DNA of 57,992 nt, taken from IMG/VR virus record IMGVR_UViG_3300007760_000741, positions 1 to 57,992 of that record; one strand, written 5' to 3'. Each line of letters opens with the position of its first letter. Within the stretch, counting starts at the first letter, position 1. Made by a program: the position numbers and the translations under genes. This DNA is from a virus. Shown here in pieces: positions 2,448-57,992 of the stretch. The notes beneath the pieces are model-generated. The model was not told the DNA's origin. It saw only the letters and a list, made by a program, of their open reading frames with translations, and searched no databases.

Positions 2448-2449
2448 GA

Positions 2450-3538
2450 TTAACACCCGTTAGATACAGTAGCAGTTACATCAGCTGATTGAGTATTCCT
2501 GTTGTATGAATATACGCAAGTGTCTGAACCGTCTTGTGTAAAATTTAATGTATAGTCGTAAATGCTATCACCTGTTATAGTAACCTTACCATCATTACCT
2601 CCACCTGTTTGAGCAAAGTTTATTACTGAATCATCTGTATAAAGAAAAATTTTAGCAGTATTATTACCACCTGCCATGTGAAGTCTTATTGTATTATCAT
2701 CACCATTTATTATTGTTCTCAACCAATTGTTATCGCCTGATATTATTGCTGAATCTCCATAAGGGTCTGTATCAGAACCAGTGTAACTAGAGTGAATATC
2801 TAAAAGATTTGAATTACCTATAAAATCGTGAAGTTGATAGTTGCCTGTACCATATGATGAAGTGTGTATTACATTTGAATTTCCTACTATGTAAATATCT
2901 GCACTTGCACCTTCGCTACCTGAACTATCTGCAAACTGACTATGCGAAGCAGTTTGTGGACCAATTGCCTTATTTGCATTTGTATTAAATCCTTCTGAAT
3001 CTGTTGAACTGTACCATTCTACAGTATTTGAGTCACCTGACATACGAACATATAAGAAATGGTTGTCACCTCTATTCTGAACCCAAAATGTATTTGAATC
3101 TCCATAAATGTCTAAGTCAACATTGAAATTTGTTGTAGAGTCTGACCAAGTATCATAGTCTACTACGTTTGAATCACCTGTAATATCATGATCTAAATAA
3201 AAACCTGTAGCATTAACGTCATCTATGTCAGGTCTTAATTTATTAGAATTACCAATTGCTGTATAATCAAAGGTCATATTAGTACCTTTAAAAGATAAGT
3301 GACCATTATAATCTGTTACGTTTGTATTACCTATTTGTTTAATAATAATAGTAATTTTATTTCCGTCAATTACAAAAGGATTATCTGTGCTTCTTCCAAA
3401 CGTATTGTTTAATCCGTCTTGTTTTATATAGACTGAACCATTTTCTTGATCAATTTGTGTTATAAAGACTTTATTACTCGCATAACAATTAATCGTTGTT
3501 GCTAGTAACAGTATTAGACTCAATAATAACGCTCTCAT
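2450..3538 (-). CDS. Curlin-repeat (CsgA/CsgB-like) secreted protein
   Basis: This 362-residue protein has a signal peptide (MRALLLSLILLLATTINCYA). The mature part has repeated units of the type G-[DN]-[ST]-N-x-[hydrophobic], such as GDSNTFW, GNSNVIH, GNSNLLD and GDDNTIR, and begins with a curlin-like IKQDGLNN unit. Such repeats fold as stacked beta-strands in curlin amyloid. Placement directly after csgG supports the call. ATG 3538 is chosen because GGAGGT lies just upstream (complement of 3544-3549) and because it starts the signal peptide; an in-frame upstream start at 3568 would add an unlikely extension. It overlaps the csgG end by 50 bases. Repeats are longer and more irregular than in E. 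coli CsgA. Confidence 0.75.
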   Translation of the reverse strand: MRALLLSLILLLATTINCYASNKVFITQIDQENGSVYIKQDGLNNTFGRSTDNPFVIDGNKITIIIKQIGNTNVTDYNGHLSFKGTNMTFDYTAIGNSNKLRPDIDDVNATGFYLDHDITGDSNVVDYDTWSDSTTNFNVDLDIYGDSNTFWVQNRGDNHFLYVRMSGDSNTVEWYSSTDSEGFNTNANKAIGPQTASHSQFADSSGSEGASADIYIVGNSNVIHTSSYGTGNYQLHDFIGNSNLLDIHSSYTGSDTDPYGDSAIISGDNNWLRTIINGDDNTIRLHMAGGNNTAKIFLYTDDSVINFAQTGGGNDGKVTITGDSIYDYTLNFTQDGSDTCVYSYNRNTQSADVTATVSNGC

Positions 3539-4742: not shown

Positions 4743-4747
4743 TATTA

Positions 4748-5200
4748 TTAGTCTTCCTTCGGCATAGTAAATGATGTTACAGTTCCGTCTGTTTCAGTAA
4801 CAGTAATTGTAACATTACCAGTACCTGAAGGCGTTGTCCAAGTTACAACTTCTCCACCAATAGGTGATGTAAATGTTCCTGAATCTTGTTGTAAGCCGTC
4901 AGCACCAAATACGTTTGTTGTAATTTGTTTTGCTAAAGCCGTATAAAATCTTGATTCTAAGTTTGCTTTGAATTTTGCTACCGCAGTATTTTTTGCATCT
5001 TGTTCTGCTTTTTCTTTTGCGGCTTTATCAGCGGCTTTTATAGCATCTTTTCTTGTTTTTTCTATGTTTTCAATGGTCAAATAATGTGAACTTTTGCCCT
5101 GTCCACTAAAAGATGGACTGTCAAAGTCAAAAGTGATTTCACTGGCGTTTGACCCAGTTATCATGAATAAAAATAGTAATATTGTCGTTAAAATTCGCAT
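4748..5200 (-). CDS. csgF: CsgF-like curli assembly factor
   Basis: In bacteria CsgF caps the CsgG pore on the cell surface and helps nucleate fibres. This 150-residue protein has a signal peptide (MRILTTILLFLFMITGSNAS) followed by FDFDSPSFSGQGKSSHYL, which resembles the N-terminal CsgF segment that inserts into CsgG. An Ala/Lys-rich helical stretch and a beta-rich tail (TITVTETDGTVTSF) follow, as in the family. It is first in the minus-strand operon csgF-csgG-curlin-FecR. A strong ribosome site (AGGAG, complement of 5205-5209) and a late-type promoter precede it. Confidence 0.85.
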   Translation of the reverse strand: MRILTTILLFLFMITGSNASEITFDFDSPSFSGQGKSSHYLTIENIEKTRKDAIKAADKAAKEKAEQDAKNTAVAKFKANLESRFYTALAKQITTNVFGADGLQQDSGTFTSPIGGEVVTWTTPSGTGNVTITVTETDGTVTSFTMPKED

Positions 5201-5227
5201 TTTTCTCCTAAAATTCTTTTACCATAA

Positions 5228-5235
5228 TATTTATG
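5228..5235 (-). promoter_or_regulatory. Late-type promoter of the curli operon
   Basis: On the minus strand this reads CATAAATA, one base from the T4 late consensus TATAAATA. It leaves a leader of about 20 bases containing the AGGAG site before the csgF ATG. It implies that the curli operon is expressed late in infection. Confidence 0.6.
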
Positions 5236-5260
5236 TAATATCTTAACCAATTTATATGCA

Positions 5261-5268
5261 CTTAAATA
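5261..5268 (+). promoter_or_regulatory. Late-type promoter before the adenylate cyclase
   Basis: CTTAAATA lies 10 bases before the cyclase ATG. With the minus-strand promoter at 5228-5235 it makes the 78-base gap between csgF and the cyclase a divergent control region. No ribosome site is visible in the short leader. Confidence 0.5.
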
Positions 5269-5278
5269 TTGTACTATT

Positions 5279-6925
5279 ATGTCGAAAATTTTAACAAGCA
5301 CCTGGGCGGTTTGTGTCACTTTGATGATCCTTTTATTCATAAAATGGGCAGACCCAACACCTATTCAGTCAGCAAAACTGACAACGTTTGATTCCTATCA
5401 AAAATTTGGACAACACTTTGACTCAAAGAGTTTAATTTTGTTAGATATATCTGACGAAGCTCTAAAAAAACAAGGACAATGGCCATGGAAACGTGATATT
5501 TTAGGACGGACAATAGTTAATGCTTATCGGAGTGGTGCCGCTCTGGTAGTCTTACAAGTCGTATTTGCACATAAAGATAGACTAGGCGGAGACGAAATGT
5601 TTCTTAAAATGATTTCAAAATATCCAGTTATTCTTACCGAGACCGACGATGTTAAAAACTTACTCAGCATTGAACGAAAAGCCCGGGCGGTAGGTAATGT
5701 AAGTGTACCTATTGACATAGATGGTACTATAAGAAGACTACCACTTGATAGGTCAATTCCTGCTGTTATATTAGAAACAATTCAATATTACAATAAAGCA
5801 AAAAACGAAATATGGTTAGATTTTAGACATCATATTCCACGAATAGATTATACAGACAAAAGTAACTGGTCAAAAATGAAGGGCAAAATTGTATTCATTG
5901 GAACTACATTTAAAGGATCAACATTCGTTACTACGCCTAATGGTTTAAAAAACACTCATGAGATTATGGCTATTGGTACAGAAACATTATTATCACAAAA
6001 TTTTATTAGTAGACCGGATTGGCTAGAGAAAGTAGAATGGGCATTTGTTATTATAGGAGGTATAATATTCCTAATTATTATTCCACGACTCGGCGTCCTA
6101 TGGAGTTTTATACCTATCATAGTTTATCTAAGTATTGTACTTGGAGCAAGTGCCTATCTATGGAACACAAAATTATATCTTACAGAATGGTTAACTCCTG
6201 TTGTAATTGTTACCATAGTTTGGGGACATTTAATATACAATAACTTTGCACGTGAGAACAGACTAAAATTACAAATTAAAAGACAATTTGAACACTACCT
6301 AGATCCTAGAATGGTTAAAAAATTACAAAAAAATCCTTCTTTATTAAAACTAGGAGGCGAAACAAAAATAATGACATTTTTATTTTCAGATATACGTGGC
6401 TTTACACCTATAAGTGAAAAATATAAAGGCAATCCAGAAGGACTTACAAAACTTGTTAATAGATTTTTAACACGCATGACAAACGTTATAATTGCTAATG
6501 GTGGAACCGTAGATAAGTTTATGGGAGACTGCATTATGGCATTTTGGAATGCACCACTTGATGTAAAAGATCATCAAATGTTAGCAGTAATGTCAGCGTC
6601 ACAGATGCAAACAGAACTAGTAAAATTAAATGAAGAATTAACTGCAGAAGGATTACCTGAAATTAACATAGGCATAGGTATTAACACAGGTCAAGCACTT
6701 GTAGGTAATATGGGTTCTGATCAAAGATTTGACTACTCTGTAATTGGTGATGCTGTTAACCTTGCATCACGTTTAGAAAGCTCAAGTAAAACATTAGGCA
6801 AAACTTTGGTAATTTCAGAGAATACTATGAAAGGTATTGAACATATATTTCCGTTTGAATATATCGACAGCATTACCGTCAAAGGTAAGACCGAACCTAT
6901 CAAGGTTTATACCGTGGTAAGATAG
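5279..6925 (+). CDS. CHASE2-domain class III adenylate cyclase
   Basis: This 548-residue membrane protein should make cAMP from ATP in response to an extracytoplasmic signal. One transmembrane segment lies near residues 8-23. A CHASE2-type sensor follows (about 30-245, with SLILLDISDEALKKQGQWPW and GKIVFIGTTFKGS). Two or three membrane helices (about 253-325) and the catalytic domain (about 360-548) complete it. Both metal-binding Asp residues are present (D371 in FSDIRGF and the Asp of KFMGD near 417). The substrate-selecting Lys (VDKFMGD) and Asp (RFDYSV) are of the adenylate type, and the Asn/Arg pair is in VNLASRLES. It should therefore be active. CHASE2 cyclases are typical of bacteria and unusual in a phage. 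Confidence 0.93.
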   Translation: MSKILTSTWAVCVTLMILLFIKWADPTPIQSAKLTTFDSYQKFGQHFDSKSLILLDISDEALKKQGQWPWKRDILGRTIVNAYRSGAALVVLQVVFAHKDRLGGDEMFLKMISKYPVILTETDDVKNLLSIERKARAVGNVSVPIDIDGTIRRLPLDRSIPAVILETIQYYNKAKNEIWLDFRHHIPRIDYTDKSNWSKMKGKIVFIGTTFKGSTFVTTPNGLKNTHEIMAIGTETLLSQNFISRPDWLEKVEWAFVIIGGIIFLIIIPRLGVLWSFIPIIVYLSIVLGASAYLWNTKLYLTEWLTPVVIVTIVWGHLIYNNFARENRLKLQIKRQFEHYLDPRMVKKLQKNPSLLKLGGETKIMTFLFSDIRGFTPISEKYKGNPEGLTKLVNRFLTRMTNVIIANGGTVDKFMGDCIMAFWNAPLDVKDHQMLAVMSASQMQTELVKLNEELTAEGLPEINIGIGINTGQALVGNMGSDQRFDYSVIGDAVNLASRLESSSKTLGKTLVISENTMKGIEHIFPFEYIDSITVKGKTEPIKVYTVVR

Positions 6926-45833: not shown

Positions 45834-45861
45834 TTGACTTCTACCAAAAGTATAGTATTAT
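45834..45861 (+). promoter_or_regulatory. Sigma-70-like promoter with a palindrome before the subtilase
   Basis: TTGACT (45834-45839), a 16-base spacer and TATTAT (45856-45861), 8 bases before the ATG at 45870. The -10 lies within a perfect inverted repeat, TATAGTAT-TATT-ATACTATA (45851-45870), whose last base is the A of the ATG. It could be an operator or an RNA hairpin at the 5' end. Confidence 0.55.
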
Positions 45862-45869
45862 TATACTAT

Positions 45870-48800
45870 ATGATTAACGCAAAGTTAAGGAAGATTTTAT
45901 TAAGCACAGCTCTTGCTACGACTCTATCAGCTTGTGGAGGCGGTGGCGGTGGTTCTGGTGCTGGTGTTGTAAATGATTTTGTTCAAGGTGATTTATCTAA
46001 TTTATCAGGATCAAGTTCTATTGTAAGTTCTTATTCAAGTTTATTATCAAATTTCCAATCAACTATTTCAAGTGGAAACTATTCTAGTTTACAAGCAGTA
46101 TTAACAGGACCCGATGCAGATGATATAGAGACAGCAAATACACTATTATCAATGTTAAACCAAGCAGAAACACTTTGGTCTCAAACAGAAGATTTAATAT
46201 CAAGTAAAGACGATTCAACAAAATATACAATATATAATTCTAATTCATATAAAGAAGCATACGCGGCCATGATTTATTTGAGAGATCATGTTAAACCTAT
46301 TATACAAAAAGTATCAAATGGTAATGCAGTATCTCTAACAGAATACAATTTGGTTGCAAAAGAAGATAAAGCACAAGAAATTATTAATACAGAAAAAGAT
46401 ACAACTGCAACAAGTTATGCTGAAACTAAAAAAATTAAAAGTACAGAAACAGTAAGTGGTACATCTACAGTTTCAACAGTTGATACAGTAGGTACTGCTG
46501 AAGCATCAACTTCAACAAGTGACTGGACAACTGTAAATGCTGGTGGTGGACAAGAAACAAGAACAATTACAATTACTACTCCAAATTACCGAACTACTAC
46601 AACAACACCTTGTACAATAGTTAGAAAAACTTTATTAAATGGTACAACAGTTGATAGTGCCTGTACATATGGAACACCGGTTGTTTCTACAATAGCTTTA
46701 GATCCAACAGTAGAAACTTCAACAGAAACTAGAGAAGGTGACAATCCAGTAATAACATCAGAAACTCTTGAAGCTACGGTTAATACAGTTACTGAAACCA
46801 ACGATCAATATGTTGTGACAAATTATGCAGATGCAGAAGATACAAATACAACTACTGCAAACGGAACTGCGGTTACTACAACTGCAAACAGAGATGTTGT
46901 TACAGATGTTGATAATGGTGACAACACTACGACAAGAACAACCGTAAGATATGTTGATACTACAATTACTACACCAGTCACAACTACGGTAACAAGAACA
47001 AGAACTTACACAGATATTACAAAACAAAATTCTAGAACAATTACAACTACAACACCACAAACAAAGGTTACATATAAAGACGGTACATCAGAAACTATTT
47101 CAGGTACTGCAACAGTAGTGACAAGTGATTGGACAGTTAATACAATTAGTACTGCTACAAGAACAGAAGAACTACCAGTTAGTGAAACAACTGCTAATAC
47201 AGTTTCTACTTCAAGTAATTCAGGTACACAAATTGCACAGGTTACAATTTCAAACGCATACACAGATCAAGATACAACACTAGGTACAAAAACAGAAAAT
47301 ATGTCTACAGTTGTAAATGATCACAAAACAACTGAATACAATACAAACCACGGATTGAATACTATAAATGCCGCAGATGCTTATGCAAAAGGATGGACAG
47401 GTAAAGGTGCAGTATTAGGAATAATTGATACATACCAACAAACTGATCACCCAGAATTAAGTGGCAAATATAAATGGTACAATGATTATACAAGATATGA
47501 TAATACAGTATCTACATCAGGCAATACACAAGTTCACGGTACACACGTTGCAGGTATTATAGCAGGTAAAAAAAATAATACAGGAAATCACGGTGTGGCG
47601 TTTGATGCCGAATTAGTTGGTGCCAACGTTGACTATTATGGATATGGTGGTATTTCAAAAAGTTATGCTCAACAGGCATTACATGATTTTGCAAAATTAA
47701 AAGATCCAAATGGCGAAAATTTAAACATTGTCGCAGTTAATATGAGTTGGAATACTCCAACATTGTTTACTAATGGACAAGGTAGTACAGTAACTCAATT
47801 AGGAGATGGCACATATAACGCATCAGAAATTACTTCAAAAATGGACAATGGTGATGGAAATGCAAAATATTATAAAGTAGCAACTGACAACGATATTATT
47901 TTAGTAAACTCTGCAGGTAACTATGGATTCAATCACTCAGGTGATCCCGGTATTTGGGCAGTAGAAGTAGATGCAAGTGGAAACCTTATATTAGGTGGCA
48001 AAATGATTATTGTAGGTAACTGGGATAACGGAACAATTGCAGGTAATAAAGCAGGTCACGTATGTTTAGATATTTCTAATAATGCTTGTAATGACCAATA
48101 CAAAGTTTCAGACTTTTATATTTTAGCACCAGGTAATCTTATCAATAGTTCTGTTCCAACTCATTTAGGTGGCAATGGATATATGAATATGTCTGGTACT
48201 AGTATGGCGGCACCACACGTAACTGGAGCATTTGGTGTAATAAATCAAATGTGGCCACACATGAAAGGTGACAATCTTGTTAAACTTATATTGTCTACTG
48301 CAAATAAAAATATATATGGTTATAATGTAAACACACACGGACAAGGTTTATTAGATTTAAGTGAAGCAACAAAACCACAAGGTGCAACAGGTATTCCAAC
48401 AACAGGTAGAACAAACGGACCAATTATAAATGTATATGGAACATATTTTGCAACTGGTACTGCGTTGCCAAGTAATTTAGCAAATTTAAAAGTAATGATA
48501 TTGGATGAATATGAAAGAGATTATTATCTAAATTTAGGATCAAGTTTTTCAGTTAAAGATATGAGAAAAGTATCTGATATAGATATGATGATGAATGGAC
48601 ACACATATCTTCCAATTCAATCTATGTACGGAAATTTTGCACAAGGTGGCAATTATGATTTAGGATATATGAACTTTGGTATATACTCAGGTGAAAATGG
48701 AAATGGAGACTTTTCAGCAAATATAGGTAAAAACTTTATGTTAAGTAATAAATTTAAATTAAAAACATCAATTGGACAAATGAATGAACAAGACAACTGG

Positions 48801-49481
48801 TTAGGTAACTCTTCAAGTGGTGCATTAGCAGTTGGTGATAATAACATTACAAATTTTGGACAAATAGGTATTGAATATCAATTAGGTAACAATGTGTTAA
48901 GTTTTGATTATTCAAAAGGTTATACAGATGTTAATACAACTGATAATAGTTTAATAACAGGATTTGATAACATTGAAACAGAATCTATGAAACTAGCATA
49001 TGAAGTACACAAGGATCAAAATAATTCTTGGGGATTCTCATTATCAACACCAAGTCATATTACAAATGGTACAATGAATTTAACGGTTCCTGAATCAAGA
49101 ACATTAGATGGTGATGTTAATTATACAACTATCGAATCTAATATGAGTCCTTCTAAAATTGAAAAAGATATTGGATTCTTTTATAATCACACACCAACAA
49201 ATGATATGGATGCATCTTGGAACTTTAAAGCAGAATACAGACAAGATATTGCTGGACAAGATGGACACGATGGTGTTAGTTTAGGATTTAACTATGTTAA
49301 AAAATTACACACAAATTGTAAATTTTTATGGATGAAAAATCCAAAATGTTACGAAAAAGATGGCAAAACTTTAAAAGCAAATTTATACGGTGACAGCAGA
49401 AATAATAATTCAATAGCATTAACACACGGATTAGTTTACGATTTAGAAACAGACAAATTCGTTCCAATTAAAAAGAAATAA
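45870..49481 (+). CDS. Subtilase (S8) lipoprotein, probable autotransporter
   Basis: The 1203-residue protein starts with a lipoprotein signal (KILLSTALATTLSACGGGGG; Cys at about 22). A helical region (about 30-190) and a long Thr-rich repetitive region (about 190-480) follow. The S8 protease domain has an intact triad: D520 in GIIDTYQQTDHPEL, H556 in VHGTHVAG, and S778 in SGTSMAAPHV. The last 350 residues alternate short beta strands (FGIYSGENGNGDFSANIGKN; IGIEYQLGNNVLSFDYSKGY) as in a beta-barrel translocator, with a final soluble tail. Upstream in-frame start 45834 is rejected because it lacks a signal. Such proteases are bacterial surface proteins, rare in phages. Confidence 0.88.
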   Translation: MINAKLRKILLSTALATTLSACGGGGGGSGAGVVNDFVQGDLSNLSGSSSIVSSYSSLLSNFQSTISSGNYSSLQAVLTGPDADDIETANTLLSMLNQAETLWSQTEDLISSKDDSTKYTIYNSNSYKEAYAAMIYLRDHVKPIIQKVSNGNAVSLTEYNLVAKEDKAQEIINTEKDTTATSYAETKKIKSTETVSGTSTVSTVDTVGTAEASTSTSDWTTVNAGGGQETRTITITTPNYRTTTTTPCTIVRKTLLNGTTVDSACTYGTPVVSTIALDPTVETSTETREGDNPVITSETLEATVNTVTETNDQYVVTNYADAEDTNTTTANGTAVTTTANRDVVTDVDNGDNTTTRTTVRYVDTTITTPVTTTVTRTRTYTDITKQNSRTITTTTPQTKVTYKDGTSETISGTATVVTSDWTVNTISTATRTEELPVSETTANTVSTSSNSGTQIAQVTISNAYTDQDTTLGTKTENMSTVVNDHKTTEYNTNHGLNTINAADAYAKGWTGKGAVLGIIDTYQQTDHPELSGKYKWYNDYTRYDNTVSTSGNTQVHGTHVAGIIAGKKNNTGNHGVAFDAELVGANVDYYGYGGISKSYAQQALHDFAKLKDPNGENLNIVAVNMSWNTPTLFTNGQGSTVTQLGDGTYNASEITSKMDNGDGNAKYYKVATDNDIILVNSAGNYGFNHSGDPGIWAVEVDASGNLILGGKMIIVGNWDNGTIAGNKAGHVCLDISNNACNDQYKVSDFYILAPGNLINSSVPTHLGGNGYMNMSGTSMAAPHVTGAFGVINQMWPHMKGDNLVKLILSTANKNIYGYNVNTHGQGLLDLSEATKPQGATGIPTTGRTNGPIINVYGTYFATGTALPSNLANLKVMILDEYERDYYLNLGSSFSVKDMRKVSDIDMMMNGHTYLPIQSMYGNFAQGGNYDLGYMNFGIYSGENGNGDFSANIGKNFMLSNKFKLKTSIGQMNEQDNWLGNSSSGALAVGDNNITNFGQIGIEYQLGNNVLSFDYSKGYTDVNTTDNSLITGFDNIETESMKLAYEVHKDQNNSWGFSLSTPSHITNGTMNLTVPESRTLDGDVNYTTIESNMSPSKIEKDIGFFYNHTPTNDMDASWNFKAEYRQDIAGQDGHDGVSLGFNYVKKLHTNCKFLWMKNPKCYEKDGKTLKANLYGDSRNNNSIALTHGLVYDLETDKFVPIKKK

Positions 49482-49677: not shown

Positions 49678-50219
49678 CATTTAAAATTGAATTGTCTTCA
49701 ACATATTGGGACACACCCCCAATAGCAGAAATAAAACTTAATAAATCAAGCGATAAAACAATCACCGATGTTGATAATAAAAATCTCTTTGATTATGATT
49801 CTAACAAACCTATACTTAACATTGATAATTCATATTTCAAAAATGAAATTACTAGTACAAAAAATAAACCAACTATAATTACATTTGAACACGAACTTGA
49901 ACACAATAAATCATACGATTTTATTATAAAGAGAACTAACAAAACTCCCAAGCAAACTATTGTTGAAGATGGCAAAATTGTTAAAGACCAAGCATTACAT
50001 ATCGGTCAAATAACAATTGATGAAATTGATATAGGAGCATTAGTATACGAAGGTATATATAGACCAGAATATCCTGAACCATGGGCATCACAACAAGCAA
50101 AAGCAGGTAACAAATTGCCTGAGACCTTTAAAAATGTAACTGAAATGGGTCATAACGGATCTTGGACATTCACATTCACTTCTCCCTTTTATATGTGGTT
50201 ACTTGAGAACCTTTACTAA
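49659..50219 (+). CDS. Hypothetical protein, beta-rich paralogue family (copy 2)
   Basis: The 186-residue protein has the same order of segments as the protein at 18217-18780: a strand-rich start (EKLTFKIELSSTYW), TFEHELEHNKSYDFIIKRTN, IGQITIDEIDIGALVYEG and an aromatic end (HNGSWTFTFTSPFYMWLLEN). The Pro/Tyr-rich segment RPEYPEPWASQQ precedes the end motif. It looks like a carbohydrate-binding-type beta sandwich, but that is only an impression from the strand pattern. Confidence 0.6.
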   Translation: METEKLTFKIELSSTYWDTPPIAEIKLNKSSDKTITDVDNKNLFDYDSNKPILNIDNSYFKNEITSTKNKPTIITFEHELEHNKSYDFIIKRTNKTPKQTIVEDGKIVKDQALHIGQITIDEIDIGALVYEGIYRPEYPEPWASQQAKAGNKLPETFKNVTEMGHNGSWTFTFTSPFYMWLLENLY

Positions 50220-50225
50220 TAAATA
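50218..50225 (+). promoter_or_regulatory. Late-type promoter opening the leader-peptide cluster
   Basis: AATAAATA overlaps the preceding stop and ends 6 bases before the ATG at 50232. Confidence 0.6.
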
Positions 50226-50231
50226 TGCTTA

Positions 50232-50600
50232 ATGAGAGCATATCAATTCATAACAGAAGCACAAGACTCTGACGCAGTAAACGAGCTAGACTCGTACATA
50301 ATGAATAACGAAGATTTATATCGTAGACGTTTTATGCCTATTATTGAAAACATTAAAAGAAAAATGAGAAGAGGTATATACGACCATGAAAAAGTAATTA
50401 AATTATGGATGTACCTTGTAGATGATGCGGCCAGAGAATATGTTAAAGAATTTGGCACACCAGATCAAGATGTTAAAGATATGTTTCCAAAAGAAACTAG
50501 ATTAAAAGTTGCTCAAGTAATAGCAGATAGAGAAAAGGAAAATATAGAAAAAGGCGAATACGATGTTGTTAAAGGAACTGTTTCTCAAAGAGGACGGTAG
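50232..50600 (+). CDS. Small helical protein with T4-like capsid-targeting leader
   Basis: The 122-residue protein starts MRAYQFITEAQDSD, which resembles the capsid-targeting peptide of T4 internal proteins (MKTYQEFIAEA-type). That peptide is removed by the head protease after Glu; here a cut after ITE is predicted. The rest is a helical charged protein (RRRFMPIIENIKRKMRRG), reminiscent of small basic internal proteins. It is under a late promoter and overlaps the next gene by 38 bases. The leader call is by analogy. Confidence 0.65.
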   Translation: MRAYQFITEAQDSDAVNELDSYIMNNEDLYRRRFMPIIENIKRKMRRGIYDHEKVIKLWMYLVDDAAREYVKEFGTPDQDVKDMFPKETRLKVAQVIADREKENIEKGEYDVVKGTVSQRGR

Positions 50601-51732
50601 GGCAACAGCCGTTTTTGCTTTTGGCCGATTTAATCCTCCCACAATAGGACACCAAAAATTAATTGAACTGGTCCAAGCCCAGGCTAAAAAAGTTAATGGC
50701 AAAGGATTTATTTTTCTATCTCATACACAAAACGCAAAAAAAGATCCACTTTCTTTTAATCAAAAGTTAGCATATCTACGAACTTTAATAAATGATCCAG
50801 ATTTAGAAATTGGACATAGTGAAGCAAATACAGTCATAAAAGCATTACAAGTTATTGAAGCACAAGGCAGAACAAGAGTTATAATGGTTGCTGGTAGTGA
50901 TAGAGTAATGGAATTTGATAAACTGTTAAAACAATATAATGGCAAACCAGATCAAAAAGGCAACGAACTTTATAATTTTGATTTTGTAGATGTTATAAGT
51001 GCTGGAGAAAGAGATCCAGACGCAGAAGGTATATCAGGTGCTTCGGCATCTAAGGCAAGAGAGTTTGCACAAAACGATGATTTTGCAAATTTTTCTAAAA
51101 TTGTAATGGGCGGTACAAAAAGTAAAACAATTTACCAAATGATTCAAAATGCTATGGGTGTAAAAGTTGCAATGAACAACGAAAAGTTGTACAATGAACA
51201 AATGGAAAATAAACCTATAGTGTATATAGATATGGATGGAGTATTAGCTGATTTCTTTGGAGGCGTGGAAAAACTATATGGCGTAGAACATTGGAAACAA
51301 TTAACATCAGATAAAACAAAAGATTTAAAACAAGAAGTAATTAATCGAATTACTGGCACTGACTTTTTTGCAACACTCCCAGAATTTCCAAATGCTGATC
51401 AATTAATTACTTTGGTTAAAAAATTTACTGGAGGTTCGTTTTCTATTCTAACATCACCACTACGGGGTGATCATGAAGTTTCGTCAAAATACAAAAAACT
51501 ATGGATTGAACAACATATTGAAAAACCAGATGAAACTATTATTACTGGAAGAAAAGAATCATACGCAAAAGACAAAGCATCAGGTACACCAAATATACTA
51601 ATTGACGACAGACCAGTTAATATTGAACGTTGGCAAGGGGCAGGCGGATATGGAATTTTATACCAAGCGAATAGAGATCCATTAAGTAAAGTACAACAAG
51701 CACTTGACAACTATGGACAAAACGATCAATAA
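50563..51732 (+). CDS. NMN-adenylyltransferase-like / 5'-nucleotidase fusion with capsid-type leader
   Basis: The 389-residue protein starts MLLKELFLKEDGRAT, close to the leader of T4 Alt (MELITELFDE). Residues about 14-200 are a nucleotidyltransferase with FGRFNPPTIGHQKLI (the GxFxPxxxGH motif) and a late GISGASASKAREF (ISxTxxR-like). Residues about 220-389 are an NT5C-type HAD nucleotidase: VYIDMDGVLADFF with the nucleophile Asp, ILTSPLRGD and ILIDDRPVNI. Such a fusion could make or salvage NAD-type or deoxynucleotides. It may be packaged in the head, which would be unusual for metabolic enzymes. Confidence 0.85.
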   Translation: MLLKELFLKEDGRATAVFAFGRFNPPTIGHQKLIELVQAQAKKVNGKGFIFLSHTQNAKKDPLSFNQKLAYLRTLINDPDLEIGHSEANTVIKALQVIEAQGRTRVIMVAGSDRVMEFDKLLKQYNGKPDQKGNELYNFDFVDVISAGERDPDAEGISGASASKAREFAQNDDFANFSKIVMGGTKSKTIYQMIQNAMGVKVAMNNEKLYNEQMENKPIVYIDMDGVLADFFGGVEKLYGVEHWKQLTSDKTKDLKQEVINRITGTDFFATLPEFPNADQLITLVKKFTGGSFSILTSPLRGDHEVSSKYKKLWIEQHIEKPDETIITGRKESYAKDKASGTPNILIDDRPVNIERWQGAGGYGILYQANRDPLSKVQQALDNYGQNDQ

Positions 51733-52906
51733 ACATTTCTGCATTCAGCCCTTTATAAACGTAACTACAAGAATTACCGGAAATCACAACGTCTGTTGTA
51801 ATACTACATTTAAAGACAGCAATATAAAAAAACAAACTTCATACGATTTTTTTAATTCCGATAAAGTTAAAAAAATGAGAAATGACTTGTTAAATGGTAA
51901 AAGATTAGCTGATTGCCGTTTATGTCAATATCAAGAAAAAAGTGGACATCATAGTCATAGACAAAAATATAATGAATACTATTTTATTAAAAACAAACAA
52001 TCCTCTGATTATTATAAAAATATTGTAGAAAAATTACATATTAATACTTTGCAAAGACCTTTATATGTTGATATACATATTAGTAACCTATGCAATTTAA
52101 AATGTTTAACTTGCAACGAACGTGATAGCAGTATGTTTCATGCTGAAAACAAAATATTAGGTATTAGTGAGGCTCCTAACACAAATTATACAAAATTTGT
52201 AGTAGATACTGTTGATGCAATTAAGGAAATAATACATCCAAGATTATTGTTTTTAGATATACGAGGTGGAGAAACTTTAATGGTTCCCGAAATAAAAAAA
52301 GTCTTATCTACTATTCCTAACGATATTGCAAAAAATATTACTTTAAAAATACAAACAAATGGAACAATCTTTCCTGATAAAACCTGGGTATCAATATTCA
52401 AAAAATTTAAAAATACCAAAGTAAATGTAAGTATCGATGCATATAAAGATGCTAACACTTACATAAGATATCCTTCCGATTGGCAAAAAATATTAAACAC
52501 AATAGAATATTTAAAACAACAAAATATTAAATTTATTATAAACACAGTAGTATCTAATCTTAATATATTAAAACTAGACAAATTGCTTAACTGGATAAAA
52601 GAAAAAAAATATTTAAATTACTTCTATATACTAGATGCTCCATTACATTATAGACCTACAAATTTACCAAAACAAATCTTAAAATTAGCAGGTAAACGAT
52701 TATCTAATATAAGCAAAGACTTTACTAACAAAGAAATAACTAAAGCAATTGATCAATTAATAGATATGTGCTATAACACAAATAACTTTAACATTAAAAA
52801 TTGGCAAACATTTTGCAAAGAAGTACATATAAGAGATAAACATCGAAACAATAATATATTAAATACATTACCCGAACTAGAAGGACATCTTAATGCCAAA
52901 ATTTGA
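51713..52906 (+). CDS. Radical SAM protein with twitch-type extra Cys region
   Basis: The 397-residue protein has the radical SAM motif CNLKCLTC (C-x3-C-x2-C) near the middle, preceded by HFCIQPFINVTTRITGNHNV, a Cys pair and CRLCQYQEKSGH. A GGETL-type SAM-binding segment (IRGGETLMVPEI) follows. Extra cysteines suggest a second Fe-S site. It starts at ATG 51713, overlapping the nucleotidase by 20 bases. A role in modifying a peptide or sugar is possible; the substrate is unknown. Confidence 0.82.
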   Translation: MDKTINKHFCIQPFINVTTRITGNHNVCCNTTFKDSNIKKQTSYDFFNSDKVKKMRNDLLNGKRLADCRLCQYQEKSGHHSHRQKYNEYYFIKNKQSSDYYKNIVEKLHINTLQRPLYVDIHISNLCNLKCLTCNERDSSMFHAENKILGISEAPNTNYTKFVVDTVDAIKEIIHPRLLFLDIRGGETLMVPEIKKVLSTIPNDIAKNITLKIQTNGTIFPDKTWVSIFKKFKNTKVNVSIDAYKDANTYIRYPSDWQKILNTIEYLKQQNIKFIINTVVSNLNILKLDKLLNWIKEKKYLNYFYILDAPLHYRPTNLPKQILKLAGKRLSNISKDFTNKEITKAIDQLIDMCYNTNNFNIKNWQTFCKEVHIRDKHRNNNILNTLPELEGHLNAKI

Positions 52907-53063
52907 AGGAATCAATAAAAATTATTCATCCGATAAAGAATATAAAAAATCAACACAAGAAGAACGTGATCGTATGATGAAAGAATTTCTTGCCAAAGGT
53001 GGCAAAATACAAAAAATACCTTCTAAAGTAACAAAACAAATGATAGAAAAGGGTAAGTTTTAA
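52893..53063 (+). CDS. Small basic protein with LAKGG motif
   Basis: This 56-residue protein starts MPKFEGINKNYSSDKEYK and ends with MMKEFLAKGGKIQKIPSK. A nearly identical segment (MKQYLAKGGSVEKIPAG) lies inside the large protein at 56471. It overlaps the radical SAM gene by 14 bases. The shared motif suggests a common binding or structural element. No family is recognised. Confidence 0.65.
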   Translation: MPKFEGINKNYSSDKEYKKSTQEERDRMMKEFLAKGGKIQKIPSKVTKQMIEKGKF

Positions 53064-53078
53064 AAGCATCTACCTAAA

Positions 53079-53086
53079 AATAAATA
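53079..53086 (+). promoter_or_regulatory. Late-type promoter before the SOD gene
   Basis: AATAAATA ends 8 bases before the ATG at 53095. Confidence 0.55.
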
Positions 53087-53094
53087 CTGATATA

Positions 53095-53640
53095 ATGAAT
53101 ATCAGGAACCTAATTAACCAAATTGACCAAATAGAAGAGACTAAAGCACACTATATACAGTCTAAACTACCCTATGGTCTTACAGATCTAGTGCCTGTAA
53201 TGAGTAAGGACACACTAGACTATCATTATGGCAAACTATATAAAGGCTATGTAGATAAAGCTAACAAAAGTGAGGGCGGTGACTTCCAAATAGCAGGTGC
53301 ATTCTTACACAGTTTATATTTTCCTCAATTTAAAGCTCCTGCAGGAGCTAACAGGCCAACTGGTGTTTCTAACGAATTTATAAATGATTTTGACAAGTTT
53401 AAAGAAGAATTTACAAAAGCGGCAATGGGCATCCAAGGTTCAGGTTGGATCTATATGGATACAAGTGGTACAATTAAAACAATTAAAAATCATAAAGTTG
53501 TAAAAAATATTGCACTATTAGTCGACTGGTGGGAACACGCATGGGCACTTGACTATCAAGCTGACAAGACAAAGTACCTAGTAAATACTTGGAAGATAAT
53601 AAATTGGGACGTAGTTAACGATAGGATTAACGCAAAATGA
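53095..53640 (+). CDS. Fe/Mn-type superoxide dismutase
   Basis: The 181-residue protein matches Fe/Mn SOD across its length. KLPYGLTDLVPVMSKDTLDY leads into HYGKLYKGYV. GAFLHSLYF, GSGWIYMD, DWWEHAWALDYQADKTKYL and TWKIINWDVVNDRI follow. All four metal ligands are present (H44, H72, D144, H148). It should convert superoxide to hydrogen peroxide. The first 22 residues (MNIRNLINQIDQIEETKAH...) extend the SOD core and end in a possible protease site after IEE, so it may carry a packaging leader. Metal preference cannot be read. Confidence 0.9.
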   Translation: MNIRNLINQIDQIEETKAHYIQSKLPYGLTDLVPVMSKDTLDYHYGKLYKGYVDKANKSEGGDFQIAGAFLHSLYFPQFKAPAGANRPTGVSNEFINDFDKFKEEFTKAAMGIQGSGWIYMDTSGTIKTIKNHKVVKNIALLVDWWEHAWALDYQADKTKYLVNTWKIINWDVVNDRINAK

Positions 53641-54245
53641 GAGCAAATGAATTTTTAGAAGGTCCACATGATCCTTATCAGTATAAAGCAATATTTTTTG
53701 CTGGCTCCCCAGGTGCAGGTAAAACATATGTTGCTAGAAAATTAGCAGGTGTATTCCAAGGATTAAAACAAGTGAACATGGATATTATTTTTAAACATCT
53801 TATGACAAGAAAAAACTTATCATGGAAAATGCCTCCAGAAGAAGAACCTGAACGAGAAAAACAAAGACAAAGATCAAAAGAATTAGTTACTAAACAACAA
53901 CAATCATTATCTGACAGTGGATTGGGTTTGCTAATAGATTCTACAGGTAGAATAGCTGGAACTGTTAGACGTATTAAAGACGAGTTAGAAGATAAAGGAT
54001 ATGAAACAACAATGATATTTGTAACCACAGATTTACAAACTGCTTTACGCAGAAATAAAGAAAGAGAACGTACACTACCAGATAAACTTATACATCAAAA
54101 TTTTGATATTATAGACCAAAGGTTGGGAGAATATCAACGTATGTTTAATGACGTACACGTTATTAATAATTCTGATATTGAACAAGATTCAATGCCTAAA
54201 CAACTTGTACAAGTTGAAAAAAATATAAGGAAATTTTTACAATGA
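53637..54245 (+). CDS. P-loop kinase (zeta-toxin/PNK-like) with capsid-type leader
   Basis: The 202-residue protein starts MRANEFLEGPHDPYQ, like the other leader-bearing proteins. A P-loop domain follows with FFAGSPGAGKTYVARKLAGV (Walker A), VNMDIIFKHL, GLLIDSTGR (Walker B type) and a late NKERERTLP lid Arg region. It is built like small AAA_33/zeta-toxin or polynucleotide kinases that phosphorylate nucleic acid ends or sugars. Its ATG overlaps the SOD stop (ATGA). The substrate is unknown. Delivery with the virion is inferred. Confidence 0.78.
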   Translation: MRANEFLEGPHDPYQYKAIFFAGSPGAGKTYVARKLAGVFQGLKQVNMDIIFKHLMTRKNLSWKMPPEEEPEREKQRQRSKELVTKQQQSLSDSGLGLLIDSTGRIAGTVRRIKDELEDKGYETTMIFVTTDLQTALRRNKERERTLPDKLIHQNFDIIDQRLGEYQRMFNDVHVINNSDIEQDSMPKQLVQVEKNIRKFLQ

Positions 54246-54490
54246 AAAAACTATTATGGCCATTAATAATGTTAAAGAATATAGTAGATCCTAATTACTG
54301 GGCAAATAAAATAGGCAATAAAACAGGTGCATATGATAAAGCACATAACAGTAAACTTGCACAATGGTCGCGTAGCCTTACAGGATGGAAATGGTGGGCA
54401 TGGCAAATAGGTGGTGGTTTAGTATTTGTTGTTGTAATAGAGATGTTATTAAATTTTATAGGCCTTAGTATGTTGCCATGGAGATGGTAG
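54242..54490 (+). CDS. Small membrane protein
   Basis: The 82-residue protein has one clear membrane helix near its C-terminus (about 52-72, WAWQIGGGLVFVVVIEMLL) and a basic N-terminal half (KIGNKTGAYDKAHNSK). It overlaps the kinase stop. No family is recognised. Confidence 0.6.
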   Translation: MKKLLWPLIMLKNIVDPNYWANKIGNKTGAYDKAHNSKLAQWSRSLTGWKWWAWQIGGGLVFVVVIEMLLNFIGLSMLPWRW

Positions 54491-54862
54491 ATGAAAAAAC
54501 TGTTACTAACTTTATTTTTTATATTATTTGCGTTTCCAGTATACGCATTAGAATTATTAATGGCACATAATCCTGCTTGTCATATTTGTGAAAGATTTAT
54601 TAACGAAGTTGCAGTAGACTACAATGATTCTGATATAGCTAAAAAGCTACCATTGATAATTATTAGTGTATATGCACAACCCGAGTGGTTTAAACAAGCA
54701 TATGCTGAAAATAGAATTAAAAAAATTAGAGGAACACCTACGTTTATAATATGGAATGGTAGAAAAGAATTAGGTAGAATTGTAGGATATCAAAGTAAAG
54801 GAAGATTTTACAGTAGACTTACAGAATTATTTCCTAAAGACTACTTTGAGGAGAAACAATGA
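54491..54862 (+). CDS. Periplasmic thioredoxin-like protein
   Basis: The 123-residue protein has a signal peptide (MKKLLLTLFFILFAFPVYA) and a thioredoxin fold. It shows LLMAHNPACHICERF with a CHIC active site and RGTPTFIIWNGRKELGRIVG with the cis-Pro (GTPT). Active-site composition suggests an oxidoreductase acting in the periplasm, perhaps on cysteines of secreted phage proteins. It is rather short but complete. Confidence 0.82.
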   Translation: MKKLLLTLFFILFAFPVYALELLMAHNPACHICERFINEVAVDYNDSDIAKKLPLIIISVYAQPEWFKQAYAENRIKKIRGTPTFIIWNGRKELGRIVGYQSKGRFYSRLTELFPKDYFEEKQ

Positions 54863-55107
54863 AAATAAATGAAATCATGGGTGAATGGGTAATAATGCCT
54901 CAGTCAATTAAACCTATGGGTTTAATACGCAAAAAAGGTACTGGTCCAAATAATAGATTTGATTTTAAAAACAAATACAACAACAAAGCAAACGAAGTTG
55001 AAAAAGAAGATGCCATGGGCGTCGGTACTATTACAAAACAAAACACTACAAAAGATGTTAAACCGGGCGAAACACAACGACAATTAAAAAAATTACACCT
55101 TAGATAA
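54859..55107 (+). CDS. Small basic protein with capsid-type leader
   Basis: The 82-residue protein starts MKINEIMGEWVIMP, similar to the other leaders with a possible cut after MGE. The rest is basic and probably disordered (IRKKGTGPNNRFDFKNKYNN ... LKKLHLR), like an internal DNA-binding protein. It overlaps the thioredoxin-like stop. Confidence 0.55.
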   Translation: MKINEIMGEWVIMPQSIKPMGLIRKKGTGPNNRFDFKNKYNNKANEVEKEDAMGVGTITKQNTTKDVKPGETQRQLKKLHLR

Positions 55108-55124
55108 TCCAAATAATTACACAT

Positions 55125-55811
55125 ATGCGATATATTTTATGCGTTAGTTTTAAATATAAACCTTATAAAAAAACTTGTAATGTCCAAATATTTTCAAATA
55201 ATTGTATGTTAGATGACTTTGAATTACAAAACAAAAAAGTACATCTAAGATATATTGAATTAGACGAAAATGCAATTGGTAACGACTTAACTTTTAAAAT
55301 TTATAACGATGATAACAACTACTCAAATGGCTTCATGACAAAATGGGCCAAAATAAAAATACATAATGTTGTATTACTACCTAAAGCTCTGTTTAATGTA
55401 AACAAAATGAAATTAATTAAAAATAGATTAAAATTAAAATGGCGTAGAATTATGGGAGAAGAAACGTGGCATCAAATTAATTGGCAAACCGATTCAAAAA
55501 TATTTCCTCTACCTGATAGGGAAAAATCACATAAATTACAAAAGTCACATAAATGGCAAATTTATTGGCCCGGTTGTAGATACCCTTATATTAAAAGCAA
55601 ACTACATGATAAAGTATTTGAAAATTACTATAATAAATGGATTGGAGAATCTTGCCAAATTATAATGAAAGTAATTAAAAAACACAATTTGCTTATTTTT
55701 GTGCCTCCAGCTACAAAACGTTTAATAGGTTATTTTTCTATTGCTAGTCTATTAGGCATCACTCCATACATAAATATATATAATGAAAATAAACGAAGTC
55801 ATAATGCGTGA
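55125..55811 (+). CDS. Hypothetical protein, 228 residues
   Basis: The protein begins MRYILCVSFKYKPYKKTCNV with strand-rich sequence that loosely recalls the paralogue family at 18217 and 49659. It has an aromatic Lys/Trp-rich middle part (HQINWQTDSKIF, HKWQIYWPGCRYPY). No domain is recognised. It overlaps the next gene by 29 bases, and that gene's late promoter lies in its end. Confidence 0.6.
   Translation: MRYILCVSFKYKPYKKTCNVQIFSNNCMLDDFELQNKKVHLRYIELDENAIGNDLTFKIYNDDNNYSNGFMTKWAKIKIHNVVLLPKALFNVNKMKLIKNRLKLKWRRIMGEETWHQINWQTDSKIFPLPDREKSHKLQKSHKWQIYWPGCRYPYIKSKLHDKVFENYYNKWIGESCQIIMKVIKKHNLLIFVPPATKRLIGYFSIASLLGITPYINIYNENKRSHNA
55769..55776 (+). promoter_or_regulatory. Late-type promoter
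   Basis: CATAAATA ends 6 bases before the ATG at 55783. It precedes another leader-type gene. Confidence 0.55.
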
Positions 55812-56064
55812 ATATGCAACTGCGGGCGCCACTTCGGCTGGCAATATAGCGGCAGTTGTAAGTCCACATATAGCTATAGGTAAAGACCGTGGCAATAAAG
55901 CATATACAGGTACACCAGGACGTTCAGGTACTAAAGCACCAAGACTACCTAAAATAGTACAACCCAAAAATCCAGACGGTTCAGCCAAAGGTGCACAAAC
56001 AGGCAAACTAGGAAAAGATGTTAGCTTGTTTGGTGGACCATTGGTTAAGAGGAGTTACCCATAA
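55783..56064 (+). CDS. Small Gly/Ala/Lys-rich protein with capsid-type leader
   Basis: The 93-residue protein starts MKINEVIMREYATAG, like the leader of the gene at 54859. The remainder is Gly/Ala/Pro/Lys-rich and probably disordered (TPGRSGTKAPRLPKIVQPKN). It fits a small head-internal protein. A late promoter precedes it and its last base is shared with the next gene. Confidence 0.6.
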   Translation: MKINEVIMREYATAGATSAGNIAAVVSPHIAIGKDRGNKAYTGTPGRSGTKAPRLPKIVQPKNPDGSAKGAQTGKLGKDVSLFGGPLVKRSYP

Positions 56065-56471
56065 TGAGAGCACAAGAATTTACAGAAGGTGCAGATTTTT
56101 TAGGATACAAATATAATGCTCCTACAAGAACATGGGAATTTCCAGATGGTTTTGAAACGCAAACTGGACATTTAAGTAATCATAGTGTAAGGGAAATTCT
56201 AGACGCATTAGGATTAGATTCAAATTTTGAGGACGCAGGTCCAATTGAAGTAGACAAATTTATAAACATATCTACTGCATGGTTAAAGAAAAATCTTGAC
56301 AAACCATCAGCAGATGTTCCAACAACAGTTGATAAATCCGGAGGCGGAGCAACTATGATAAGTGGTGGCAGACCTGAGGGTTGGATAAACAAAATGGTTA
56401 TGACATTTAATAAAGAAGCAAGAAGAATTAAACAAGCACACCCAGATTTAACACACGTGGCATTTGCATAA
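56064..56471 (+). CDS. Hypothetical protein with capsid-type leader
   Basis: The 135-residue protein starts MRAQEFTEGADFLG, closely resembling the leaders at 50232 and 53637. The rest contains TRTWEFPDGFETQTGHLSNH, a helical segment and a Gly-rich loop (SGGGATMISGGRPEG). A GAGGAG ribosome site precedes it. No family is recognised. Confidence 0.6.
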   Translation: MRAQEFTEGADFLGYKYNAPTRTWEFPDGFETQTGHLSNHSVREILDALGLDSNFEDAGPIEVDKFINISTAWLKKNLDKPSADVPTTVDKSGGGATMISGGRPEGWINKMVMTFNKEARRIKQAHPDLTHVAFA

Positions 56472-57992
56472 TGAGATTAAAAGAAATTAACAAACCTATA
56501 AAAGAATATCGAAACGTAGTTATTCCAAAAGATGAGGCACATTATAGAGAACTGATGAAACATCTCCAAGACATGGAATTAGATCCTGTGAATAGACGTG
56601 ATGAAAAACTTATGGCAGAAATACGAAGAAGAAGAATGGAACTAAGAAACTGGGCAGAAAAAAATATAAAAAGAGAATCACAACCTGATGTAGGTGCCGA
56701 AAGAGCAGATGCGGCTAGAGGTATGTGGGCATCAAGTAAAGAAATACAATCAAGATTTAAAACTTGGCAAGACTTTATGAATTCAGAAGATTTTGATGAA
56801 TGGTTAGATGACAAGTTTAGAGAAGACATGATTCCAAATAATATGCCGGGTAATATTGGTGACTATGCTCATGAAAAATCTACAGGTAAACTTGTAAGAA
56901 TAGTTGACTATACAGATGACGATGAAGGCATTTACACAATATCTTACGGTGAGGGTCAAGGCGAAACAGATGTGACTGCAGGAGATTTAGAATTTATAGA
57001 TCCAACTGTACATCAAGACTTAGATGACAAAATATTAGACAAAGAAGTTGATGAAGGCTTTATAGGAAAGAAACCAGAATACACTGATTTTTTACAAAAC
57101 AAATTAGAAAAAGCTATGCAAGAATACGATACCCCAGAAAAAAAAGCACAACGTGATGCGTTGATGAAACAATATCTTGCTAAAGGTGGTTCAGTTGAAA
57201 AAATACCAGCTGGTCAAAAAGCATTTGTTGGTAAAAAGTTAAAACCAGCATATAGAAAAGATAACGGAACACCTATTACAAGTCCAGGAAGTGATGAATC
57301 AGTAAAAGAATTAGATGACAAAGAAAGAACTATCTCTACTATCAAACACAGTTCTGATAAGGATGTTGCGTTTTTTGACAAGATGATGAAACGATATGGA
57401 CCTAAACTGATGGAACTGATAATCGATTATAGTCATATCAACAATGATCAAAAAAAGGCAGAAAAATTAAAAAAATGGGGTAGGGAGGATGATGTATACT
57501 TGTCAGACTACTACAATCAACTGTTTCATGTAGACGAAGACCTTATTAGTATGCTCATGTCAGCGGCAGATAACAATCCTAAATTAATAGATTTCTTCTA
57601 TGACAAAGTGGAACAGGCCAAAAAGGCAGGACAGTTTGCAAAAACTTCAAGGTTACCAGATCCTGACCAGACAGAAGAATCAGCAGTACAAGAAGACGCA
57701 CCATTTGATGGAAAAGGTATATTACAAAGAGCAGTTTTTAATAAATGGATATCAGCAGAAGAATGGTATCATTTAAAAGATGAATGGCAAGATGCGGCTC
57801 GAGAATTAGAACAAAGATATAGTGATTGGCCAGACGGAGAAGGGTTTGGATCATCGGATCATAATTTTGCAATTAGAGATTTAATGAGTATAGTAGGATA
57901 CGAATTTGATGACCAAGACACTAGTGGTAAATTTGTTGTAACTAAAATGCCAGAGAAATTAGAAAAATTAGGTATAACAAACGTAAGAATGA
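56471..57992 (+). CDS. Large charged virion-type protein (partial, runs off the window)
   Basis: The frame stays open from ATG 56471 to the end of the window (507 codons). The N-terminus MRLKEINKPIKEYRN weakly resembles the leader peptides. The sequence is highly charged and helical, with a beta-type segment (VRIVDYTDDDEGIYTISYGE) and the LAKGGSVEKIPAG motif shared with the small protein at 52893. No catalytic motif is seen. It may be a structural or internal head protein. The C-terminus is not visible. Confidence 0.75.
   Translation, partial: MRLKEINKPIKEYRNVVIPKDEAHYRELMKHLQDMELDPVNRRDEKLMAEIRRRRMELRNWAEKNIKRESQPDVGAERADAARGMWASSKEIQSRFKTWQDFMNSEDFDEWLDDKFREDMIPNNMPGNIGDYAHEKSTGKLVRIVDYTDDDEGIYTISYGEGQGETDVTAGDLEFIDPTVHQDLDDKILDKEVDEGFIGKKPEYTDFLQNKLEKAMQEYDTPEKKAQRDALMKQYLAKGGSVEKIPAGQKAFVGKKLKPAYRKDNGTPITSPGSDESVKELDDKERTISTIKHSSDKDVAFFDKMMKRYGPKLMELIIDYSHINNDQKKAEKLKKWGREDDVYLSDYYNQLFHVDEDLISMLMSAADNNPKLIDFFYDKVEQAKKAGQFAKTSRLPDPDQTEESAVQEDAPFDGKGILQRAVFNKWISAEEWYHLKDEWQDAARELEQRYSDWPDGEGFGSSDHNFAIRDLMSIVGYEFDDQDTSGKFVVTKMPEKLEKLGITNVRM

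Follow-up and report, generated by a model that had tools for sequence, protein, structure and literature searches.

Putative capsid-targeting leaders on enzymes and small proteins in one gene cluster of a T4-like phage

We examined a set of related N-terminal peptides encoded at one end of IMG/VR virus record IMGVR_UViG_3300007760_000741, which was analysed at its full length of 57,992 nt (hereafter the window) and is a fragment of a marine T4-like phage. Judged by its sequence, the window appears to encode T4-like tail fibres, a clamp loader of the gp44 type and a ClpA-like protein; its closest named matches, reached through the cytidylyltransferase and kinase genes described below, were in Pelagibacter phage HTVC008M and then the Methylophilales phage Melnitz. 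A 117.8-kb record (G001) is the same phage, and the window, G001 and a further record, G002, are probably fragments, while the 196.6-kb record G003 has the same cluster together with gp21, gp22 and gp23. The cluster fills the last 7.8 kb of the window, for which 13 genes were listed. A sequence-only reading of this region had picked out six proteins that begin with a short related peptide, along with two weaker cases, and had proposed that these peptides act as capsid-targeting leaders like those of T4 internal proteins. All six were confirmed as starts of open frames with ATG codons (50232, 50563, 53637, 54859, 55783 and 56064), and the weaker pair at 53095 and 56471 was found as described. 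The features of the cluster are as follows.

50218..50225, + strand: AATAAATA, late-promoter-like, 6 nt before the 50232 start codon
50232..50258, + strand: leader MRAYQFITE of a 122-aa protein (50232-50600); all 8 sequences compared have Glu-9
50563..50592, + strand: leader MLLKELFLKE of a cytidylyltransferase-like plus NT5C nucleotidase protein (50563-51732), 6 distinct leaders, all L-x-E
53079..53086, + strand: AATAAATA, late-promoter-like, 8 nt before the 53095 start codon
53095..53139, + strand: weaker leader MNIRNLINQIDQIEE of an Fe/Mn superoxide dismutase (53095-53640), Sod_Fe_C 1.4e-19
53637..53660, + strand: leader MRANEFLE of a zeta-toxin-like P-loop kinase (53637-54245), Zeta_toxin 1.9e-13
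54859..54885, + strand: leader MKINEIMGE of an 82-aa basic protein (54859-55107)
55769..55776, + strand: CATAAATA, late-promoter-like, 6 nt before the 55783 start codon
55783..55812, + strand: leader MKINEVIMRE of a 93-aa basic protein (55783-56064); all 9 aligned sequences have the Glu, with leaders of 8-14 residues
55813..55866, + strand: YATAGATSAGNIAAVVSP, predicted mature N-terminus of the 93-aa protein, a copy of the gp23 mature N-arm motif
56064..56087, + strand: leader MRAQEFTE of a 135-aa protein (56064-56471), predicted unstructured, residues 1-7 with predicted local distance difference test (pLDDT) scores below 50
56471..56506, + strand: leader-like start MRLKEINKPIKE; the long acidic protein behind it runs off the end of the window and has 647 aa in G001

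Related leaders on unrelated proteins

The motif that describes six of these starts, ^M[RK]xx[EQ][FILVM], was picked post hoc from the window, so the p-values given for it are descriptive; MLLKELFLKE (50563) and MNIRNLINQIDQIEE (53095) are counted in addition to it. It occurred in 5 of 16 called cluster genes and in none of 72 genes elsewhere in the window (hypergeometric 1.1e-4); the 16 include three antisense open reading frames and omit the open-ended 56471, and the 13-gene list gives 6/13. Just one of the 326 internal methionines of the window met the motif. Cluster genes carried it similarly in G001 (6/17 vs 0/141 others), G002 (5/16 vs 1/163) and G003 (7/18 vs 1/205; 5e-8), and across these four records, which were read whole and supply the rest-of-genome evidence, the motif lay outside the cluster at G003 55439 and G002 14272 only. 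A pattern modelled on T4 matched 8 of 88 window genes, including the six listed leaders, and 11 of 321 internal methionines. We also fetched 59 loci around the cluster; together with the window and the three long records these gave a leader on 95 of 1176 distinct proteins, which fell into 34 clusters by the segment after the leader, i.e., unrelated proteins share a short N-terminal leader.

Three sites matching NATAAATA, which we take to be the late-promoter consensus, were present in all on the + strand between 49401 and 57992, each 6-8 nt before a leader gene. Within 60 nt upstream, such sites preceded 3/7 leader genes vs 8/81 others in the window, 3/7 vs 15/172 in G002 and 3/9 vs 25/214 in G003. 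These sequence features would point to late expression of the leader genes, and the sites at 50218, 53079 and 55769 stand so near the start codons that the transcripts may be nearly leaderless. The same sites raise the explanation that the N-termini resemble one another through translation-start or promoter constraints on AT-rich late genes and not through the peptide, as some 5' ends are DNA-constrained, with NATAAATA 6-8 nt before three of the genes. We consider this very improbable: 50563, 53637, 54859 and 56064 have no such site yet encode peptides of this type, the conserved Glu of the 93-aa family can be as far as 14 codons from the start, and synonymous positions vary in the 50232 leader (pS, the proportion of synonymous differences, was 0.51), so that the DNA itself is not what is held fixed. 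The ratio of nonsynonymous to synonymous differences for 50232 was 0.28 in the leader and 0.17 in the body, the leader value being biased low since the sequences were picked by a leader pattern. For 50563 the same synonymous-site test was confounded, as this leader shares DNA with the 3' end of gene 50232 and the sequences were likewise picked by pattern; at 50563-50600 this leader sits in another frame over the last codons of that gene.

A second explanation holds that the shared N-termini are remnants of gene duplication or recombination at gene starts, with no targeting role. Three MRA leaders do have the codons ATG AGA GCA in common, the genes adjoin each other, and the homology clusters merge via shared domains, as fusions would give. 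However, synonymous sites have changed with the peptide still recognisable, the leader of the 93-aa family varies in length with its terminal Glu constant, and its boundary is the same as the gp23 cut site (see below); we regard such remnants as improbable.

The 93-aa protein, the gp23 arm and the protease

Comparison of sequences made the boundary in the 93-aa protein (55783) the strongest evidence that a leader would end at a cut site, which is written below as a slash. Of the 27 loci found, 24 were read and gave 15 distinct relatives; in each of these a Glu lies directly before xATAGAT, behind leaders that vary in length (MKIKDILE, MRIKDLLE, MKISEVIRE, MKINEVIMRE, MKISEVIIRRVQE and MKINEIIIRRINNE). 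The gp23 of G003 reads ...ENTKKYLSE/QATAGATSAGNVATLNRV where T4 gp23 reads FLTE/A, and the T4 protein is cut there, after residue 65 (PMC9026906). Glu occupied the predicted cut in 74 of 74 readable gp23 proteins (80 loci fetched) and was followed by x and then ATAGATSAGN, with no change in 42, one in 23, two in 7, three in 1 and four in 1; the third residue before the cut (P3) was Leu in 48 of 49 distinct sequences around this site.

A hidden Markov model (HMM) built from the small proteins of the 93-aa family alone matched 7 of 12 records at E<=1. In six of these (G010, G018, G019, G020, G021 and G022) one match was to a frame as long as gp23 and covered profile positions 7-25 (E 1e-5 to 5e-5); these are 6/6 of the gp21-bearing records of this gp23 clade; the match in G013 was to a 95-aa frame, and G012, G011, HTVC008M, Melnitz and T4 gave none. 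Run against nine isolates at E<=10, the model matched the gp23 proteins of four large phages (GAP32, PA5oct, Vibrio phage 2.275.O and Atu_ph07; E 2e-6 to 5e-4) and also tiny proteins in GAP32 (52 aa, MKKKRVNE/NASSGATSSG) and Vibrio phage 2.275.O (58 aa, MKKQMKE/SATGGGTSAG). In PA5oct it found a 498-aa protein labelled ESI-MS/MS (electrospray ionization tandem mass spectrometry) and a weak match in a further frame, and in HTVC008M, Melnitz, T4, S-SM1 and S-8S55 it found nothing.

The leader boundary of the 93-aa family is therefore that of gp23, L-x-E/xATAGAT, with the following residues (xATAGATSAGN) also in common, whereas other leader families share only residues before the cut. Because the boundary is shared, a protease that processes gp23 should also remove this leader, at the identical sequence, and the product would then start like mature gp23. 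Since the downstream sequence is absent from the other leader families, xATAGAT is not just the protease's own preference, and we infer a common docking function of the 93-aa protein and the gp23 arm in the shell; the small protein may thus lie on the inner shell rather than be cargo. The likeness is confined to about 18 residues (profile positions 7-25), and the 93-aa protein is too short for the gp23 fold. A gp23-arm-like motif was also seen at a C-terminal site: the 778-aa protein encoded at L235 (Agrobacterium phage Atu_ph07), positions 763-3099, which has a kinase domain in its interior, starts MKWNDLNE/A and ends ITE/TSSAGSTGAGNVATTN.

This copy of the gp23 mature arm bears on a further possibility, namely that the leaders bring proteins to the prohead core but that the proteins act there, in core or shell assembly or DNA condensation, or remain in the empty head, and are not injected effectors. 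Two of the small leader proteins are strongly basic, and the tiny GAP32 relative (GAP32_288) is flanked by two genes with virion-structural annotations, both in keeping with such a role. On the other hand, the tagged protein at a given locus often changes from one relative to another, and several of these proteins are soluble enzymes for which a part in assembly is not obvious; on balance we judge an exclusively in-head role unlikely.

The gp21 protease (PF03420) was detected in 3 of 11 records in one search and in 10 of 18 in another. It lies beside gp22/gp23 in G003, G010, G018 and G019, all of which have leader genes. G003 and G010 have this leader cluster, and the more distant G018 and G019 combine gp21 with the small protein and with leaders such as MRAKEFITE, MRASEFITE and MKANEILTE.

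Tagged proteins and virion data

The proteins behind the leaders are diverse. The 122-aa protein at 50232 has a predicted helical fold, and its structural model gave four viral matches at E<=0.001, three of them nameless and one an uncharacterised Klosneuvirus protein; neither it nor the 56471 protein had a match in the phage collection (protein search, E<=0.01), and a PDB comparison with the structural model of 56064 gave nothing at E<=0.001. The description of the smaller proteins as basic held for 54859 (isoelectric point 10.0) and 55783 (10.3) but not for 50232 (5.9) or 56064 (5.5). The superoxide dismutase (SOD) at 53095 scored over the cut-off for both Pfam domains, Sod_Fe_N and Sod_Fe_C, and has H44, H72, D144 and H148 as its four candidate metal ligands. 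Orthologues of the kinase at 53637 have the leaders MRINEILE, MRITEIIE and MKIKDITE. The thioredoxin-like protein at 54491 has no leader and, as judged by eye, a signal-peptide-like start.

In relatives, a leader-bearing Cu/Zn-SOD (PF00080 in 5 of 5 tested) takes the place of the Fe/Mn-SOD of the window, with the cytidylyltransferase on one side of it and the 54859 homologue on the other; its leaders are MRALEFTE, MRATEFTE, MRDLIDKINYIE and similar. In L028 the Cu/Zn-SOD is instead fused behind a 54859-like start. More distant relatives have an Fe/Mn-SOD starting MDLDYLKKLAGI or MDLERLKILAGI. Leader-type N-termini on two unrelated SOD folds suggest selection for SOD activity in the virion. Relatives also tag a pterin dehydratase and a GH19-LysM lysin, e.g., MRAKEFITE and MRASEFITE precede GH19 plus LysM proteins at L223 8254-9582 and L224 9179-10195. 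At L028 12538-12828 and L038 14101-14418 a leader-type start is followed directly by a twin-arginine-like motif (MKISEIISE/LNRRDFLKK... and MRISEITTE/NNRRNFMKA...); cutting these leaders would, as the sequences read, expose a twin-arginine translocation export signal on the delivered protein. Small basic motifs also recur after leaders (L033 19236, L028 20339 and L107 478; TRCWKGYEKKGMKTMFGKRVPNC, CYHKVKSRYKVWPSAYASGALV and WSKKYKRSINCNNPKGFSQKAHCQGRKK) and match PHROGs of unknown function.

The closest link to virion composition came from the cytidylyltransferase. Sullivan et al. 2010 list gp21 and a cytidylyltransferase (T4-GC190) among 41 proteins of purified S-SM1 virions (PMC3037559). The S-SM1 protein SSM1_190, labelled T4-GC 190, starts MKKFSAFLNEAERS with the leader MKKFSAFLNE/A. 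Over 199 columns its domain shares 37% identity with the domain in the window enzyme; the neighbouring SSM1_191, also named cytidyltransferase, is unrelated. The two enzymes are thus alike in their homologous domain and in having a leader, and the cyanophage protein was detected in purified virions (PMC3037559). They differ in that the match covers the cytidylyltransferase domain only, about 70 residues separate the S-SM1 leader from the domain, and cutting of that leader is only predicted.

PA5oct, which differs from the window phage in being a jumbo phage, provided mass spectrometry (MS) labels, and the gene caller matched 90 of its 93 MS-labelled genes. The leader motif was in 4/90 of these vs 2/411 others (p=0.011), and a broader form in 8/90 vs 8/411 (p=0.003). 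Among the PA5oct proteins, EST35_0261 is an Fe/Mn-SOD (41% identical) with IAE/A near its N-terminus and an ESI-MS/MS label, and the structural protein EST35_0203 has VEE/TASAGASSAGGIASV.

The scaffold gp22 ends in another short motif, [IL]xxLAG[IVL] (NIRKLAGI* in G003, 62525-63589), as does a PA5oct gene between gp21 and gp23 (RRLAGIK*). The motif also starts or ends several cluster and virion proteins (MEDLERLKKLAGI, and MDLDYLKKLAGI before an Fe/Mn-SOD), with positions G003 164959, 156293 and 156047, L039 9515, and PA5oct 84724, 127321 and 155221. Its counts in PA5oct were 3/90 MS-labelled genes and 1/411 others, and it is possibly another head-targeting tag.

Elsewhere in the window, 237-6925 and 45834-49481 hold what appears from the sequence to be a CsgG/FecR-like curli cassette with an adenylate-cyclase-like gene (annotated so in HTVC008M and Melnitz) and a 1215-aa subtilisin-like lipoprotein of autotransporter type.

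Capsid targeting in T4 and its probable counterpart in this clade

The model for these leaders is T4, in which the first 10 residues of IPIII are required for incorporation and residues 8 and 10 govern cutting, and in which the capsid-targeting sequence alone packages foreign proteins (PMC9026906). The T4 starts that we read were MKTYQEFIAE/A (ipII/ipIII), MLKEQLIAE/A (gp22) and MAKINELLRE/S (gp24). The sequence-only reading had T4 Alt cut after LFDE, which was mistaken, as the cut falls after ITE-6 (PMC5694885). As in IPI-IPIII and Alt, the leaders of the cluster are short Glu-ending N-terminal peptides on unrelated mature proteins, with a gp21-type protease encoded by leader-bearing relatives (cut rules as given in PMC9026906 and PMC5694885). 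In T-even phages, the leader is already an established means of recognising new ip genes (PMC12373910). Several differences set this clade apart from T4: its leader consensus is M[RK]xx[EQ][FILVM], its genes form one block where those of T4 occupy several loci, its putative cargo includes enzymes (SODs, cytidylyltransferase/nucleotidase and kinase), and the profile of its 93-aa family, the one family compared singly with T4, has no T4 match. Looser leaders could be read in HTVC008M (MLSFTGYSNLSE/A) and Melnitz (MQGFKTFLSE/A and MKKFSEIIE/A); a stricter pattern, scanned against HTVC008M, gave no convincing leader.

Several results weigh against capsid targeting. The gp21 gene, sought beyond the cluster, was found in the four leader-bearing relatives named above but not in the window or G001, nor in G002; 14 control genomes also gave no PF03420 match, so we relied on the positive hits elsewhere. 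As had been noted from the letters alone, a strict [IL]-x-E site occurs in the window only at 50232, 50563 and 53095; 53637, 54859, 55783 and 56064 have Phe or Met at P3, and 56471 has no [LI]-x-E site. The worry over Phe and Met is eased because P3 is mostly I/L in orthologues: I/L in 7/8 leaders of the 50232 family and in 15/21 of the 93-aa family (12 gp23 rows caught by the pattern left out), L in 6/6 of the 50563 family and I in 3/4 of the kinases. P3 was Phe in 4/6 Cu/Zn-SOD leaders, and relatives of 56064 are split among M, F and I. The strict motif was absent from HTVC008M (0/196) and Melnitz (0/212) and occurred in just 2 of the 271 genes of T4, neither of which bears an internal-protein annotation.

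Close homologues that lack the leader would also tell against targeting, and here the outcome was divided. In the homologues read, leader and Glu are kept on 50232, 50563, 53637 and 55783, but several homologues of 54859 (MKIREFIIMPHTAD) and some of 56471 (MKINELHNQPV) retain the start and lose the Glu, and the leader proteins that relatives have at the place of 56471 are without an [IL]xE site. Of 35 cytidylyltransferase homologues (a set that excludes S-SM1 GC190, missed by the pattern used), 11, mostly distant, have no [ILVMF]xE leader, and these include ones in gp21-bearing records: L047 (G012), GAP32, PA5oct and S-8S55. In PA5oct the T4-modelled pattern was not enriched among MS-labelled genes (5/90 vs 11/411, p=0.14), and the MS label also takes in likely contaminants, including ribonucleotide reductase and thymidylate synthase. 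For this phage itself, the evidence comes from gene sequence.

On the other side stand the leaders themselves with their clustering and modularity, gp21 in leader-bearing relatives, the boundary shared by the 93-aa protein and gp23, I/L at P3 in orthologues, the late-promoter-like sites and a homologous enzyme in cyanophage virions. Taken together these support the sequence-only reading. We think it likely that the leaders, like those of T4 internal proteins, are propeptides for capsid targeting which a gp21-type protease removes, and that the proteins are packaged and ejected with the DNA. By analogy with T4, tagged proteins would be made late in infection from the promoters at the NATAAATA sites, and a helix formed by the N-terminal M[RK]xx[EQ][FILVM] would dock them on the prohead scaffold core, around which the shell would close. 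The gp21-type protease that trims gp23 would then cut after the terminal Glu of the leader and free the mature protein; DNA would be packed around the tagged proteins, which would leave with it into the next cell. In this clade the cargo would include the cytidylyltransferase/nucleotidase, the zeta-toxin-like kinase, SODs of two unrelated folds and small basic proteins. Targeting, cutting, packaging and injection are all modelled here on T4, and the cargo functions are putative. Where the role of a T4 internal protein is known, it is anti-restriction, in phages of enterobacteria (PMC12373910).

We regard the system as a variant of the T4 internal-protein system, enzyme-rich and clustered in one block, with the gp23-arm copy and the tagged SODs its newest parts; the literature covered (titles and abstract openings, with most subscription papers outside coverage) included T4 and jumbo-phage papers but nothing on such leaders in marine T4-like phages, on virion-packaged phage SOD or on the capsid-arm copy. 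More tentatively, and with somewhat more doubt than confidence, this large marine T4-like clade and some jumbo phages might have a generalised delivery system in the form of a leader-coded "cargo operon", in which SODs of two folds were independently tagged as an injected antioxidant shield and a tiny head protein, matured at the gp23 site and mimicking the gp23 arm, docks in the shell. If marine T4-like phages do use readable leaders to package enzymes, one could predict from sequence which proteins widespread ocean viruses inject, and the long-standing question of what phages deliver besides DNA would become testable. The tagged SODs would suggest phage protection against oxidative damage at entry, and the leaders would also serve as new packaging tags.

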